A stretch of 64,000 bases of DNA from Phycisphaerales bacterium (GTDB lineage: Bacteria; Planctomycetota; Phycisphaerae; Phycisphaerales; UBA1924), in assembly GCA_035627955.1 (NCBI GenBank), contig DASPKU010000019.1:124001-188000 (forward strand). Reading direction: 5' to 3'. A program made the position numbers and the translations under genes. The notes under the pieces were generated by a model. That model worked only from the letters and a program-made list of their open reading frames with translations, did no database searches and was not told where the DNA came from. Within the stretch, counting starts at the first letter, position 1; every line of letters begins with the position of its first letter. Shown here piece by piece: positions 7,744 through 13,837 of the stretch.

Positions 7744-9726
7744 ATGAAGCGCGACACGCTGGTGCAGTTGGTGGCGGCCCTGGTGCTGGCGGCGTGCCTG
7801 CTGGGCTCGGGGCTCGCGGCCGTGAACATCACGGGGTATGCGAGCGCCGCGAAGCTGACGTACACGGACCGCGCGGAGGAGGGGCAGCCGCCGGAGGTGG
7901 CGCTGGGGATCGCCATGGGCGCGTTCCGCGGCATCTTCGTGAACTTCCTGTGGATCCGCGCCGAGGACATGAAGCAGGCGGGGAAGTACTACGAGGCGAA
8001 CCAGCTGGCGACGGCGATCACCAAGCTGCAGCCGCGGTTCCCGCGGGTGTGGGTCTTCCACGGGTGGAACCTCGCGTACAACATCTCGGTGGGGACGCAG
8101 ACGCCCGATGAGCGGTGGGCGTGGGTGAACTCGGGCATTTCGCTGCTGCGGGACAAGGGGATCCCGGCGAACCCCAACGACATGCTCCTGCACAAGGAGC
8201 TGGCGTGGATCTTCCTGCACAAGGTGGGCGGGTTCACCGACGACGCGAACATCGTCTACAAGAAGCGGCTGGCGCAGGAGTGGCAGATCGTGCTGGGTCC
8301 GCCGCCGCGGCGGACGAGCGAGGACCGCAAGCGCGAGGCGGCGATCGAGAAGTACGCGTCGTGGCTGGAGGGCTTCGAGCAGGCGCCGCTGACGCTGGAG
8401 CAGTGCATCGCGGCCGAGCCCAGCGTGCGGACGCTGCTGGACCGCATCCACACGGAGCTGGGCACGAAACCCGAGGAGAGCCCGGAGAAGATCTACGAGC
8501 TGCTGTTCAACTATGAGCGCGTGAAGGCGATGTCGACGTCGGTGCTGCTGCCGCTGTACGAGACGACGCTGGGGCCGCGGAGCAAGGTGCTGATGGCGAT
8601 GGCGAACGACCCGCAGCTGGAGCGGGCGTGGGCGGCGCTGCTGAAGCATTGGCGGCGGCGGGTGGTGGTGGAGCTGTACCACATGGAGCCCTCACGGATG
8701 GCGCGGTACACGCGCGAGCACGGGCCCATGGACTGGCGGCACCACGCGTCCCACAGCCTGTACTGGGCGAAGAAGGGCGTAGAGGCGGGGCTGTCGCGCG
8801 TCGATGTGGCCCGCAACAAGAGCGACTTTGACTTCATCAATACGGACCGCGTGGTGGCGCAGTCGATCCAGGACCTCTTCCGCACCGGGGAGATCTACTT
8901 CGACTTCCTGGGGTCGTTCAACTCGGGGCAGACCGAGAGCTTCTTCCAGGGCATCCCCAACCCGCACTTCGTGCAGTCCTACGCGGAAGTGCTGGACGCG
9001 ATGGCGGAGCGCTCGTGGGCGGACAACAAGGACGCCCGCGGGTACAGCCCGCTGGCGTCGGGCTACGAGAACTTCGTGCGCGAGGCGATCACGTTCTTCT
9101 ACCGGCGCGGGCAGATCGACGAGGCGCAGAAGTGGGTGAAGAACCTGCTGGAGACCAAGCACTTCAACCTGAACGACCCGGACCGGCGGATGCTGCTGGA
9201 GCAGCCGCTGGAGGTGTTCGTGACCAGGGAGCTGCAGGGCGAGCTGACGCGCCCGGCGATCCTGGTGAACCAGACGATCTCGGCGCTCATGGGTGCGTAC
9301 GCGGGCGGGCTGCTGGGCGGCGACCCCGACCTGTTCCTGTCGCAGTTCAACTACGCCATCCGCGTGCACAAGGTGTACATGGAGGAGCAGCTGAAGAACA
9401 CGCCCGCGGCCGGCGGGGACCGCGACCGCATGGAGCAGCTGGCGTCGGACTTCCGCATGGTGGCCGGTGCGACGTTCTACCAGTTCATCACCGGGCTGAA
9501 CCTTGACGATGCGCGGGTGGTGTACCAGGCGGCGCCCAACACCCTGCGGCTGTACGCCTACACGTACCTGCTGGAGGCGGTGAAGCCGGAGATGGACAAG
9601 ATCCCGGGCGCGAGCTTCGCGCAGGCGTTCCCCGAGCCGCAGGGGTACAAGGAGTGGTTCGAGGCCGAGCGCCGGAAGCTGATGGAGGAGATGCGGAGGA
9701 ACCGGGCGCCGGTGGAGCAGAAGTGA
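7744..9726 (+). CDS. Membrane-anchored or exported helical-repeat protein, unknown function
   Basis: Last gene of the SPFH/ABC operon, 660 residues, with GGGAG seven bases before its ATG. The N-terminus is a signal or anchor segment (residues 7-27) containing an LAAC that could serve as a lipobox but is not decisive. The rest is soluble, Trp- and Tyr-rich and helical, with short stretches that resemble TPR helices (GKYYEANQLATAITKLQPRF, and later RRGQIDEAQKWVKNLLE). I do not recognise a named family. Its position after the permease suggests an outward-facing partner of the transporter. It ends six bases before the convergent purC gene. Confidence 0.8.
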   Translation: MKRDTLVQLVAALVLAACLLGSGLAAVNITGYASAAKLTYTDRAEEGQPPEVALGIAMGAFRGIFVNFLWIRAEDMKQAGKYYEANQLATAITKLQPRFPRVWVFHGWNLAYNISVGTQTPDERWAWVNSGISLLRDKGIPANPNDMLLHKELAWIFLHKVGGFTDDANIVYKKRLAQEWQIVLGPPPRRTSEDRKREAAIEKYASWLEGFEQAPLTLEQCIAAEPSVRTLLDRIHTELGTKPEESPEKIYELLFNYERVKAMSTSVLLPLYETTLGPRSKVLMAMANDPQLERAWAALLKHWRRRVVVELYHMEPSRMARYTREHGPMDWRHHASHSLYWAKKGVEAGLSRVDVARNKSDFDFINTDRVVAQSIQDLFRTGEIYFDFLGSFNSGQTESFFQGIPNPHFVQSYAEVLDAMAERSWADNKDARGYSPLASGYENFVREAITFFYRRGQIDEAQKWVKNLLETKHFNLNDPDRRMLLEQPLEVFVTRELQGELTRPAILVNQTISALMGAYAGGLLGGDPDLFLSQFNYAIRVHKVYMEEQLKNTPAAGGDRDRMEQLASDFRMVAGATFYQFITGLNLDDARVVYQAAPNTLRLYAYTYLLEAVKPEMDKIPGASFAQAFPEPQGYKEWFEAERRKLMEEMRRNRAPVEQK

Positions 9727-9732
9727 CGCTCG

Positions 9733-10671
9733 TCAGCGCATGAGCCGCTCGGCCGCCTCTTCGTACTTGGCGAGGGTGGCCTGGGCGATCTGATCCGGGA
9801 GGGCGGGGCCGGGGGCCTGCTTGTTCCACTCGCCCTTGGCGACCAGCGTCTCGAGGTACTCGCGGAGGTACTGCTTGTCGAAGCTCCGCTGCGCGCGCCC
9901 CGGCTGGTAGTCGCTCGCGGGCCAGAAGCGGGAGCTGTCGGGCGTGAGGGCCTCGTCGATGAGCATGGGCTCCGTGGCCCGACTCTCCGAGTCCGGCTCC
10001 GTTGTCAGGCCGAACTCGAACTTCGTGTCCGCGATGATGATGCCGCGGGCGGCGGCGTGCTCCGCGGCCTTTGAGTAGATCGCGAGCGAGGTGTCGCGGA
10101 GGCGTTCCATCAGCAGTCGGCCGACGCGCGAGCAGGCGTCGTCGAAGGTGATGTTCTCGTCGTGCTTGCCCTGCTCTTCTTTGGTGGCGGGGGTGAAGAT
10201 GGGCTGTGGGAGCTTGTCGCACTGGCGGAGGCCGGCGGGGAGTTTGACGCCGCACACGGCGCCGGTAGCCTGGTACTCCTTCCAGCCCGAGCCCTCGAGG
10301 TAGCCGCGGACGACGCACTCGATAGGGACGACGCGGGCCCGGCGTGCGATCATGACGCGGCCGGCGAGTTCGGCGCGCCCGGTGCCGCCGATGCCGAAGG
10401 CGGAGTCGGGGAGCTGGCCGACGTCGTCGGAGATGAGATGGGTGCGGCAGAGGCCGGCCTGCTCGATGAAGTGGAGCCAGAAGGTGGAGAGGCGGGTCAG
10501 CACCCGCCCCTTGCCGGGGATGGGCGTGGGCATGACGACGTCGAAGGCGGAGATGCGGTCGGTGGCGACGATGAGGAGGCGGTCGCTATCCCCGGGCAGT
10601 TCATAGACATCCCGCACTTTGCCGCGGCGGGGACCCGGGAGGTTGAGGTGGGACTCGAAGAGGCCTTGCAT
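9733..10671 (-). CDS. purC: Phosphoribosylaminoimidazole-succinocarboxamide synthase
   Basis: Joins aspartate to CAIR in de novo purine synthesis, giving SAICAR. Family signatures are plain: GKVRDVYELPGDSDRLLIVA at the N-terminus, then TDRISAFDVVMPTPIPGKG, KFEFGL, and DEALTPDSSRFWPA near the end. At 312 residues it is the longer, Ade1-sized form rather than the roughly 240-residue enterobacterial form. It stands alone, away from purH at 24.8 kb. No Shine-Dalgarno is visible; a TACGCT hexamer six bases before the ATG suggests a leaderless message. Confidence 0.97.
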   Translation of the reverse strand: MQGLFESHLNLPGPRRGKVRDVYELPGDSDRLLIVATDRISAFDVVMPTPIPGKGRVLTRLSTFWLHFIEQAGLCRTHLISDDVGQLPDSAFGIGGTGRAELAGRVMIARRARVVPIECVVRGYLEGSGWKEYQATGAVCGVKLPAGLRQCDKLPQPIFTPATKEEQGKHDENITFDDACSRVGRLLMERLRDTSLAIYSKAAEHAAARGIIIADTKFEFGLTTEPDSESRATEPMLIDEALTPDSSRFWPASDYQPGRAQRSFDKQYLREYLETLVAKGEWNKQAPGPALPDQIAQATLAKYEEAAERLMR

Positions 10672-10683: not shown

Positions 10684-10831
10684 CCGCCCGGGGGTGCCGC
10701 CTGCCCGGCGGTGCTCCAGTGCGGCGGGGGTGTGGGTTTCCGGTTAATCCAAACGCACTCCGGGCCGGTAGACTCTGCCCCCTCGCTGCCGAACCATGGT
10801 GTTCGCACGGGCGGGTTCTGGGAGGCTCGGG

Positions 10832-12565
10832 TTGCTCAGCTTCGTGGTCTTTGATGCCGACGGCGTGGACGCGGCCCACTTTCCGCCGCGTCATGCCTAC
10901 CTGATCGGGCCCGACGAGGTGCCGATGCAGGGCGACATCTCGTTCGAGGCGGGGCTGGTGGAGTGCGAGAAGACGGTGCCGCAGACCGCCGGGCTGGCGG
11001 TGCAGTTCCAGGTGGGCAAGCCGGAGGGACCGGGGGTGCCGCCGATGCCCAATGGCCTGGGGCTTCTGACCCTGAGCACGTGCCTGCTGCCGGACCGGGC
11101 CGAGCCGTACCTGCTGACGATCGAGATCGCGCGCAACCGCATCATGTTCTTCCTGAACAAGATGGAGGACTGGGGGCTGTTCGACCTGCCGGCGGACAAC
11201 CCGGTGATGCAGCAGTTTGAGCACGCGCGGGCGCAGTTCACGCAGGCGCTGGTAGCGCAGCGGGGTTCGAGCGGGGGCGCGCACGGCGAGGAGACGCCCC
11301 GCATGGGCTTCTGCCCTGCCGCGGACAAGATCGCGACCAACGCGCTGTCGCTGGCGATCAACGCCGGTGAGGGATTGACTCTGATCAACGCCGACCGGCA
11401 GCTCAAGCATCGGCTGAGCGGGCGGGCGTACACAGAGGCGGTGCAGCACCTGGCGCGGCTGACGCCCGAGGTGCCGCCGACGGGCCACCCGATCTCGATC
11501 CCGGGGGCGGGGCAGGTGGTGCTGCACGGGCCGCCGCAGATCGGCTGCGCGATCTCGCCGGGGCTGTTCGGCGAGCCGATGCACAAGGCGGTGATGGCCA
11601 CCTGCGACTTCGTGACCATGCCCATGCGGTGGGTGGACATGGAGCCCAACGAGGGCAAGTACAACTTTGCGACCACGGACCGGTGGATCGAGTGGGCGGT
11701 GCGCACTGCGAAGCTGCCGGTGGTGGGGGGGCCGCTGATCGACTTCCGGCCGCAGGCGGTGCCGGAGTGGTTGTTCATCTGGGAAAACGACTACGAGACG
11801 CTGCGGGACCTGGTGTTCGAGCACGTGCAGGCGGTGGTGACGCGGTACCGGCGGACGGTGCAGCGGTGGACGGTGGCGAGCGGGCTGCACGTGAACACGA
11901 ACTTCAAGATCAGCTTCGAGCAAATCATGGACCTGACGCGGATGTGCGTGCTGCTGACCAAGAAGCTGCACCCCACCGCGAAGATCCAGCTGGAGGTGGC
12001 GCAGCCGTGGGGCGAGTACCACGCGAACAACCGGCGGAGCATCCCGCCCTACCTGTACGCGGAGGCGGCGGTCGCGGCGGGGCTGTCGATCGACGCGATC
12101 GCGCTGCGGGTGCAGATGGGGCACGCGGAGCCGGGGTACGCGACTCGGGACATGATGGCGCTCTCGGCGCTGCTGGATAAGTTCGCGGGGCTGGAGAAGC
12201 CGATCGTGGTGTCGGCGCTGGGGGCGCCTTCTGCACCGATTACTCCCACGCCGTTCCGGCCGCGGGCGGGGGCGGAGGCGGAGGACGCGTACGAGCCGGG
12301 GTATTGGCGGCAGCCCTGGAGCGAGCAGAGCCAGGCGGACTGGCTGGCGCAGGCGGTGGCGGTGTGCTGCTCAAAGCCTTACGTGCACAGTGTTTGCTGG
12401 CACGAGCTGGCGGATGCGCCGCAGGGCGCCCCGGTTCCGGAAATGCCGCACGCGGGGCTCCTGAACGCGAATGGAACGCACAAGGCGGGTCTGGTGCGGC
12501 TGGCGCAGGTGCGGAACGCGATTCGGGATGGGAAGAGCCCGCTCAGTCTGCACGGGGGGAAGTAG
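10832..12565 (+). CDS. GH10-fold (xylanase-like) protein, catalytic glutamates apparently absent
   Basis: A two-part protein of 577 residues: an N-terminal domain of about 190 residues (starting LSFVVFDADG) and a C-terminal barrel resembling glycoside hydrolase family 10. Barrel landmarks are DFVTMPMRWVDMEPNEGKYN, then RWTVASGLHVNT where xylanases have WDVVNE, QLEVAQPWGEYHA, and EKPIVVSALGAPS where they have ITELD. Both catalytic Glu positions seem replaced (by Gly or Ser, and by Ala), so hydrolysis in the usual way is doubtful. The TTG at 10832 has GGAGG six bases upstream; an in-frame ATG at 10796 has no ribosome site. Carbohydrate binding is an inference. There is no signal peptide. Confidence 0.8.
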   Translation: MLSFVVFDADGVDAAHFPPRHAYLIGPDEVPMQGDISFEAGLVECEKTVPQTAGLAVQFQVGKPEGPGVPPMPNGLGLLTLSTCLLPDRAEPYLLTIEIARNRIMFFLNKMEDWGLFDLPADNPVMQQFEHARAQFTQALVAQRGSSGGAHGEETPRMGFCPAADKIATNALSLAINAGEGLTLINADRQLKHRLSGRAYTEAVQHLARLTPEVPPTGHPISIPGAGQVVLHGPPQIGCAISPGLFGEPMHKAVMATCDFVTMPMRWVDMEPNEGKYNFATTDRWIEWAVRTAKLPVVGGPLIDFRPQAVPEWLFIWENDYETLRDLVFEHVQAVVTRYRRTVQRWTVASGLHVNTNFKISFEQIMDLTRMCVLLTKKLHPTAKIQLEVAQPWGEYHANNRRSIPPYLYAEAAVAAGLSIDAIALRVQMGHAEPGYATRDMMALSALLDKFAGLEKPIVVSALGAPSAPITPTPFRPRAGAEAEDAYEPGYWRQPWSEQSQADWLAQAVAVCCSKPYVHSVCWHELADAPQGAPVPEMPHAGLLNANGTHKAGLVRLAQVRNAIRDGKSPLSLHGGK

Positions 12566-13495: not shown

Positions 13496-13837
13496 CTAAA
13501 GCACGTAGCAGCTCGTCAATCGTACATCACTCTCATCGGCGAGGGCAATCCAGGCCGTCTTGATGACCGCAGTGCCCTTTTTTGTGGTCACCGGAATGTC
13601 GAGGTGGAATCGTTGACCATGCTCATCGAGAACGCCGACCTGAAAGTCCGATCGATGCGATTCCGCCACAGTGAGTATGTGTTTGCGCAGCCACTCAGCG
13701 TGGTCTGCCGTGAGCCCGAGAACTGATCGGAACACCCGAGCCTTGTGCCTTCCAGTTCTGTGTTCGGACGAGAGGGCGTAGTCCCGCAGTTTCTCGATTG
13801 GTATGACGAGCCGGGTGTTGGAGGGGCGGCCGCTCAC
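13496..13837 (-). CDS. DUF6883 domain protein
   Basis: A 113-residue protein from a GTG start, with the DUF6883 hallmark IPIEKLRDYALSSEHRTGRH then KARVFRSVLGL, and a C-terminal TAWI..LTSCYV strand. Such domains occur both free-standing and at the ends of larger toxin-like proteins, which hints at an RNase-like or toxin role; that is inference from family context. TAAACT lies six bases before the GTG, so the pair's mRNA is probably leaderless. It is transcribed with the DUF4926 gene. Confidence 0.78.
   Translation of the reverse strand: MSGRPSNTRLVIPIEKLRDYALSSEHRTGRHKARVFRSVLGLTADHAEWLRKHILTVAESHRSDFQVGVLDEHGQRFHLDIPVTTKKGTAVIKTAWIALADESDVRLTSCYVL

Follow-up and report, generated by a model that had tools for sequence, protein, structure and literature searches.

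A GH10-derived barrel protein that lacks both catalytic glutamates and is carried by nearly all sampled genomes of Phycisphaerae

Among the genes of the window, i.e., the whole 64,000-nucleotide stretch of Phycisphaerales DNA analysed here, is one whose product keeps the barrel of the GH10 glycosidases and has neither of their two catalytic glutamates. As the catalytic motif is gone from this protein while homologues keep it, the label of pseudoenzyme is supported by the sequence comparisons; they lend no such support to glycan binding in particular. Other pseudoenzymes built on glycosidase folds are known. The explanation that we regard as the best one, and as rather probable on the whole, is that of an ancient cytoplasmic pseudoenzyme derived from GH10, with a rewritten active site and with the adjacent HhH protein as its likeliest partner in Phycisphaerae. 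Our best guess is that such a protein would most likely act as a scaffold or as a sensor of a ligand other than xylan.

From an ATG at 10796, the reading frame stays open for 589 aa until the stop at 12565, and its translation contains both RWTVASG and IVVSALG, the segments in which the sequence-only reading of this DNA had seen the two glutamates replaced. The TTG at 10832 is the likelier start (Table 1), since methionine stands at the same column in the raw frames of many relatives; the sets in which starts near this column were chosen by a script are not independent support for it. Residue numbers refer to the 589-aa frame unless stated otherwise (the 577-aa number plus 12). On the reverse strand opposite the gene there are only long antisense frames of a kind common along the GC-rich window, and the search for an RNA element or riboswitch upstream of the gene gave one chance-level Rfam match, below the gathering score.

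Table 1. Features of the pseudoenzyme gene and its surroundings (positions in the window).
Feature	Position	Strand	Remarks
660-aa protein	7744..9726	+	no Pfam/NCBIfam match
purC (SAICAR synthetase)	9733..10671	-	divergent neighbour; also near the gene in other genomes
Likely Shine-Dalgarno GGGAGG	10820..10825	+	six bases before TTG 10832; read directly
GH10-derived pseudoenzyme gene	10832..12565	+	577 aa from the TTG; further in-frame ATG at 10796
N-terminal beta-rich part	10832..11077	+	aa 1-82 (577-aa numbering); AlphaFold DSSP
Helical part	11114..11461	+	aa 95-210 (577-aa numbering)
(beta/alpha)8 GH10-type barrel	11537..12526	+	aa 236-565 (577-aa numbering); Pfam, AlphaFold, Foldseek, VIA
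Ser362-Gly363 replacing GH10 Asn-Glu (acid/base)	11879..11884	+	W-T-V-A-S-G vs WDVVNE
Glu400, strand 5, replacing active-GH10 Asn	11993..11995	+	alignment
PWGEY motif after strand 5	12005..12019	+	related forms in nearest active relatives
Arg438, strand 6, replacing active-GH10 Gln	12107..12109	+	alignment
Arg451-Asp452 near-invariant pair	12146..12151	+	R 161/167, D 158/167
Ser473-Ala474 replacing GH10 Thr-Glu (nucleophile)	12212..12217	+	V-S-A-L-G vs ITE; Ala474 = 12215-12217
HhH_3 (ComEA-like) gene, 193 aa	12679..13260	+	C-terminal HhH_3; 113 bp after pseudoenzyme stop
DUF6883 protein, small	13496..13837	-	1.1e-20

The window protein scores 39.5 bits with the Pfam GH10 model (PF00331; E-value 5.3e-10, cut-off 22.1 bits), and the model also matches all 79 members of the A4 set, i.e., the window protein and 78 named loci, at an E-value of 0.01 or better. 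The AlphaFold model built from A4 (pLDDT 92, pTM 0.93) has the GH10-type barrel that had been read from the sequence; its strand 4 (model residues 343-350) ends at Ser362 of the 589-aa frame and its strand 7 spans model residues 458-464. In Foldseek, all rows among the best 50 listed were GH10 xylanases or Kemp eliminases (best E-value 8.3e-15), the latter presumably being designs built on a GH10 xylanase. The best VIA match was AcXyn10A (8B73; Z 30.6, rmsd 3.0, 301 residues aligned) and the second was 7D89 (Z 29.4), a GH10 xylanase mutant inactivated by E182A/E280A. The three best VIA rows were all GH10, and rows of the GH1 type reached a Z of up to 27, tied with the lower GH10 rows; fold alone therefore leaves the family unsettled, and it is the sequence profile that settles it. 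The protein is similar to the GH10 endo-1,4-beta-xylanases (PF00331; AcXyn10A, XynA 7D88/7D89) in its (beta/alpha)8 barrel (Z 29-31 over approximately 300 residues) and in fold residues such as G250 and W358. Unlike them, it has had both catalytic glutamates and most other active-site columns replaced, is predicted to be cytoplasmic and carries an N-terminal domain with no clear PDB match.

This extra N-terminal domain, also proposed in the sequence-only reading, is present in the AlphaFold model as a beta-rich and a helical part, and four residues of the latter (E110, R113, E124 and W126 in the 589-aa numbering) are invariant in both the A1 and A4 sets. When folded alone, the domain reached a pLDDT of 86. 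A Foldseek search of the PDB with it returned nothing under 0.001 (best E-value 0.16), and the best VIA match had a Z of 6.8, which lies within the chance range of the tool; the domain appears to be without a clear PDB counterpart and may still have a known fold. No hydrophobic segment was detected in the first 60 residues of any of the 79 pseudoenzymes, and the hydrophobicity threshold was reached anywhere in the whole protein in only three of them. With no predicted signal peptide, the protein is likely to be cytoplasmic, and in this respect it does not look like a secreted xylanase.

Several alignments place the replacements at the catalytic columns. In HMMER against the GH10 xylanase 1TA3, WDVVNE is aligned with W.VVSG, the alignment stopping short of the nucleophile, and in hhalign against the active relative L112, WDIINEAH corresponds to WTVASGLH and ITELG to VSALG. 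The MAFFT set of 63 rows (38 pseudoenzymes, 24 active proteins and one K-variant) agrees on these columns. Within A4, glutamate was found at the acid/base or the nucleophile column in none of the 79 members. The survey of orthologues for the same substitutions covered 167 distinct members, 143 of them Phycisphaerae-type and 24 belonging to the other clade, which together represent at least two classes (of the 207 rows at the outset, 15 were dropped as repeats), and none of the 167 has both glutamates. One acidic residue at one site is found in three of the 167: the acid/base column has no Glu and one Asp (L117), and the nucleophile column has two Glu (L048 and L087), while all 24 rows of the other clade have a gap there. 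As there is no Glu at either column in A4 and no pair of glutamates among the 167, the loss is far beyond chance and is no sequencing slip. Nor is there an alternative glutamate at the aligned catalytic columns; Glu400, near-invariant in A4 (78 of 79), sits on strand 5. Because both catalytic residues are absent, no glycoside hydrolysis by the two-glutamate mechanism of GH10 would be expected.

Changes at the active site are not limited to the glutamates. At least 21 of the 24 active GH10 rows agree at sixteen columns, and nine of these are almost wholly replaced in the 167 pseudoenzyme rows, in which the active residue is kept 0 times (H312, W316, N362, E363 and W536), twice (N400 and E474), four times (H440) or 27 times (Q438). 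G250 and W358 are kept in 158 and 165 of the 167 rows, respectively, and five columns are intermediate (G311 in 43, P393 in 131, G436 in 94, G467 in 74 and T473 in 103 rows). Three residues that are conserved in 19-20 of the 24 active rows persist among the 167: W279 in 166 rows, W325 in 161 and K563 in 153. In the window protein all six of the positions His312, Trp316, Asn362, Gln438, His440 and Trp536, which we take to be the lining of the GH10 sugar site, are replaced. Conservation of the barrel loops does not set the catalytic side apart from the opposite side (means 0.517 and 0.566; after a gap filter the difference was -0.036, with 8331 of 10000 permutations as high), and the active GH10 control fails likewise.

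Columns 400 and 438, which lie on the neighbouring strands 5 and 6 and are N-Q in 23 of the 24 active rows, differ between the two pseudoenzyme clades. Glu occupies column 400 in 121 of the 143 Phycisphaerae-type rows and Arg in 13 of the 24 other-clade rows; column 438 is Arg or Lys in 96 of 143 (Gln is kept in 27) and Glu or Asp in 22 of 24, respectively. Read as a pair, they are an acid followed by a base in 93 of the 143 Phycisphaerae-type rows; in the other clade, 13 of 24 rows have the base first and the acid second. In neither clade does any row have the order opposite to the polarity of its own clade, and like charges occur in 2 of 167; the exceptions to the ion pair are EQ (19 of 143) and SE (7 of 24). 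Such a swap of charges in opposite polarity between the clades suggests a direct contact; as the rows are related, the counts are inflated and the swap comes down essentially to a single difference between the two clades. What was once the active site has probably become an internal ion pair that links strand 5 to strand 6, with acid-base polarity in Phycisphaerae and base-acid polarity in the other class; it is the covariation that is seen, and the contact would account for it.

The origin of the pseudoenzymes was addressed with a tree of the 63 rows from which the four catalytic-motif columns had been removed. The 38 pseudoenzyme rows, picked by hand, form one side of a branch with support 99/97, and a single change of state is needed; within this clade, the Phycisphaerae-type rows (96/97) and the other rows (100/100) each form a sub-clade of their own. 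The next branch consists of L112, L113 and L114, with support 95/79 among themselves and 93/78 with the pseudoenzyme clade, neither of them starred. The active set contained 20 of the 27 loci L202-L228 together with L112, L113, L115 and L116; it omits L222, L226, L227 and L228 (repeats) and L202, L216 and L217 (no seed match). L112 and L113, active relatives from the same phylum, share with the pseudoenzymes forms of the PWGEY, Arg-Asp and W..PW...Q..W motifs. Unlike the pseudoenzymes, these two keep Asn-Glu and Thr-Glu, and L114 keeps Asn-Glu with Lys at the nucleophile. In hhalign, L112 aligns with the family over its full length (E-value 3.4e-35, 477 columns), and its N-terminal part alone aligns weakly (55% probability). 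Because the alignment covers the full length, the architecture was probably already established when catalysis was lost. The pseudoenzymes would then go back to one derivation, with a single loss of catalysis, from a GH10 enzyme to which this N-terminal domain had probably been joined beforehand, and this repurposing probably took place long ago. Lys at the nucleophile with Asn-Glu kept, as seen in a relative of the active proteins (L114, G187:C116, and L226), looks like a separate loss.

The family is carried by 60 of the 61 genomes of the order, including the own genome, and the one genome without it is 87% complete. At a threshold of 1e-10, the family profile finds 196 of the 198 genomes of the class, the own genome among them, and all of its 152 sampled genera; these are profile matches, the catalytic columns having been read in fetched loci only. 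Both glutamates are lacking in all of 20 further loci from 17 families of the class. In a sample of the phylum, 85 of 392 genomes match the family and 44 of the 85 lie outside the class. Among the 29 out-of-class loci of these 44 that were examined, 24 are of the pseudoenzyme type, four have both glutamates (L112, L113, L115 and L116) and one has the Lys nucleophile (L114). When genomes sampled from the phylum were compared with PF00331 itself, 43 of 199 gave a match of any sort, pseudoenzymes included. Relatives were found in 241 stretches of named genome contigs, and the best 80 of the 241 are Planctomycetota by title except for three odd ones and one that is uninformative. The three, titled Leptolyngbya, Cyanobacteria and Vicinamibacteraceae (L133, L135 and L174), have the gene at 40-66% identity with purC upstream, and L135 and L174 also have the HhH gene downstream; their titles are probably wrong.

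A pseudoenzyme is often a surplus copy that arose next to an active paralogue. Here, no GH10 other than the inactive protein passes the cut-off in its own genome (assembly 95.7% complete; the sole further match has 16 bits against 22.1), and the family is near-universal in the sampled class. A role as helper of an active xylanase in the own genome was rejected, because that genome has no second GH10 above the cut-off. A comparable case in the fold list is beta-Klotho (5VAN; VIA Z 26.5, rmsd 3.1, 303 residues aligned), an extracellular receptor in which a GH1-type glycosidase barrel is kept for protein binding; unlike beta-Klotho, the protein described here is of GH10 origin, bacterial and predicted to be cytoplasmic. 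In the literature searched, whose coverage excludes most subscription journals, no paper was found that describes a GH10 pseudoenzyme from Planctomycetota, and a GH10-derived pseudoenzyme as a class-wide gene did not appear. Because of the Pfam GH10 match, genes of this family are likely to be annotated as xylanases, which would inflate the counts of xylan degraders among Planctomycetota. With a single loss and close active relatives, the family offers a clean system for studying how a glycosidase barrel is repurposed.

The HhH gene lies directly downstream of the pseudoenzyme gene in 79 of 107 loci and in 15 of 20 further class loci, i.e., in 94 of 127 Phycisphaerae-type loci. Adjacency was counted at loci with at least 0.6 kb of flank, and the named and unnamed loci overlap in part, so that the synteny counts are not independent. 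When the first in-frame ATG or GTG is taken as the start, the HhH gene overlaps the pseudoenzyme gene in 31 of 95 cases (24/80 and 7/15) and starts within 120 bp of it in 94 of 95 (79/80 and 15/15). The HhH protein of the window is small and predicted to bind DNA; it matches PF12836 at 4.2e-23 and TIGR00426 with 66.4 bits (cut-off 53.1). Its C-terminal HhH_3 is like that of ComEA, the competence DNA receptor, and against the full ComEA model (TIGR01259, comE) it stays below the cut-off, with 80.8 bits against 152.35. A hydrophobic segment was detected in the first 80 residues of 68 of the 80 HhH proteins. No fusion of the pseudoenzyme with HhH or PurC was found in the 220 frames matching the family profile, active relatives and repeats included.

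Judged from gene order, this putatively membrane-anchored HhH protein is the likeliest partner of the pseudoenzyme in Phycisphaerae, an assignment that is tentative and on balance doubtful. If the N-terminus of the HhH protein is inside, its HhH domain lies across the membrane from the cytoplasmic barrel, which speaks against a partnership. In addition, the HhH gene is adjacent in none of the 24 loci of the other class, and such a partnership would therefore not be the whole function; the ancestral role would be independent of HhH, or the partner is encoded elsewhere. A fuller scenario seems to us unlikely. In it the protein would be a defining feature of the Planctomycetota lineage, having lost catalysis once before the classes split and exchanged its sugar site for an ion pair of swapped polarity; as a core component it would serve, in Phycisphaerae, some DNA-related process at the inner membrane together with the membrane-anchored HhH protein.

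Other explanations of the conserved barrel have to be weighed against a scaffold or sensor. The sequence-only reading had favoured a binding protein, and in the sense of a cytoplasmic binder of glycans or oligosaccharides, which has given up hydrolysis and kept sugar binding in its groove, this part of it did not hold up well. Inactivation of a glycosidase often leaves sugar binding, the fold is that of GH10, and the tryptophans 279, 325 and 358 are nearly always kept; nevertheless, H312, W316, N362, H440, W536 and mostly Q438 are replaced as well, and by eye no sugar gene was recognised in the most frequent neighbour clusters, a PfkB-type kinase standing two genes downstream in the window. 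We consider such a binder rather improbable. A new enzyme, with catalysis moved to Glu400, Glu407, Arg451-Asp452, Arg382 and His365, is quite improbable too, even if these charged residues near the ends of strands 4-6 are near-invariant and migrated catalytic residues are reported from other pseudoenzymes (PMC10211241). In the other class, 20 of the 24 members have Arg or Ser at column 400, no metabolic operon was recognised around the gene, and PWGEY and Arg-Asp can hardly mark a new activity, because the nearest active relatives carry forms of both.

That the gene is decaying under relaxed selection, or that the true catalytic glutamates were missed by misalignment, has next to no probability. 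Identity within A1 does fall to 29% and the frame of L018 is broken (this locus was left out of the alignments; L153 and L167 were left out of A4 on account of length, so that 78 of the 80 named loci were used there). Against this, the alignments agree on the catalytic columns and residues elsewhere are invariant; together with the matches in 196 of 198 genomes and 152 of 152 genera of the class, this indicates that the gene is retained by selection, and decay is in practice refuted by the class-wide conservation. The coding frame is maintained, as the sequence-only reading had it. A tie to purine synthesis through the divergent purC, for example by binding a purine intermediate, is in our view very improbable. 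It draws on the arginines conserved in the barrel and on how often purC is found in divergent orientation no further than 1.3 kb away: in 14 of the 24 other-class loci and, among Phycisphaerae-type loci whose flank is long enough, in 46 of 103, as compared with none of the four active or K-variant loci with enough flank (of five), which have no HhH neighbour either. In the further class loci, however, the same arrangement occurs in 2 of 20, and in the class-level loci of the first survey in 0 of 7; moreover, two genes may be kept together by a common promoter region even if their functions are unrelated.

As for the remaining surroundings, an Mfd-like cluster, which we named mfd from its sequence, occurs in 31 of 140 loci, mostly downstream. 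The genes checked downstream in the window encode DUF6883, PfkB and GATase proteins, the small DUF6883 protein lying on the opposite strand. Relatives of the 660-aa protein encoded at 7744-9726 occur at 20 of the 140 neighbour loci.
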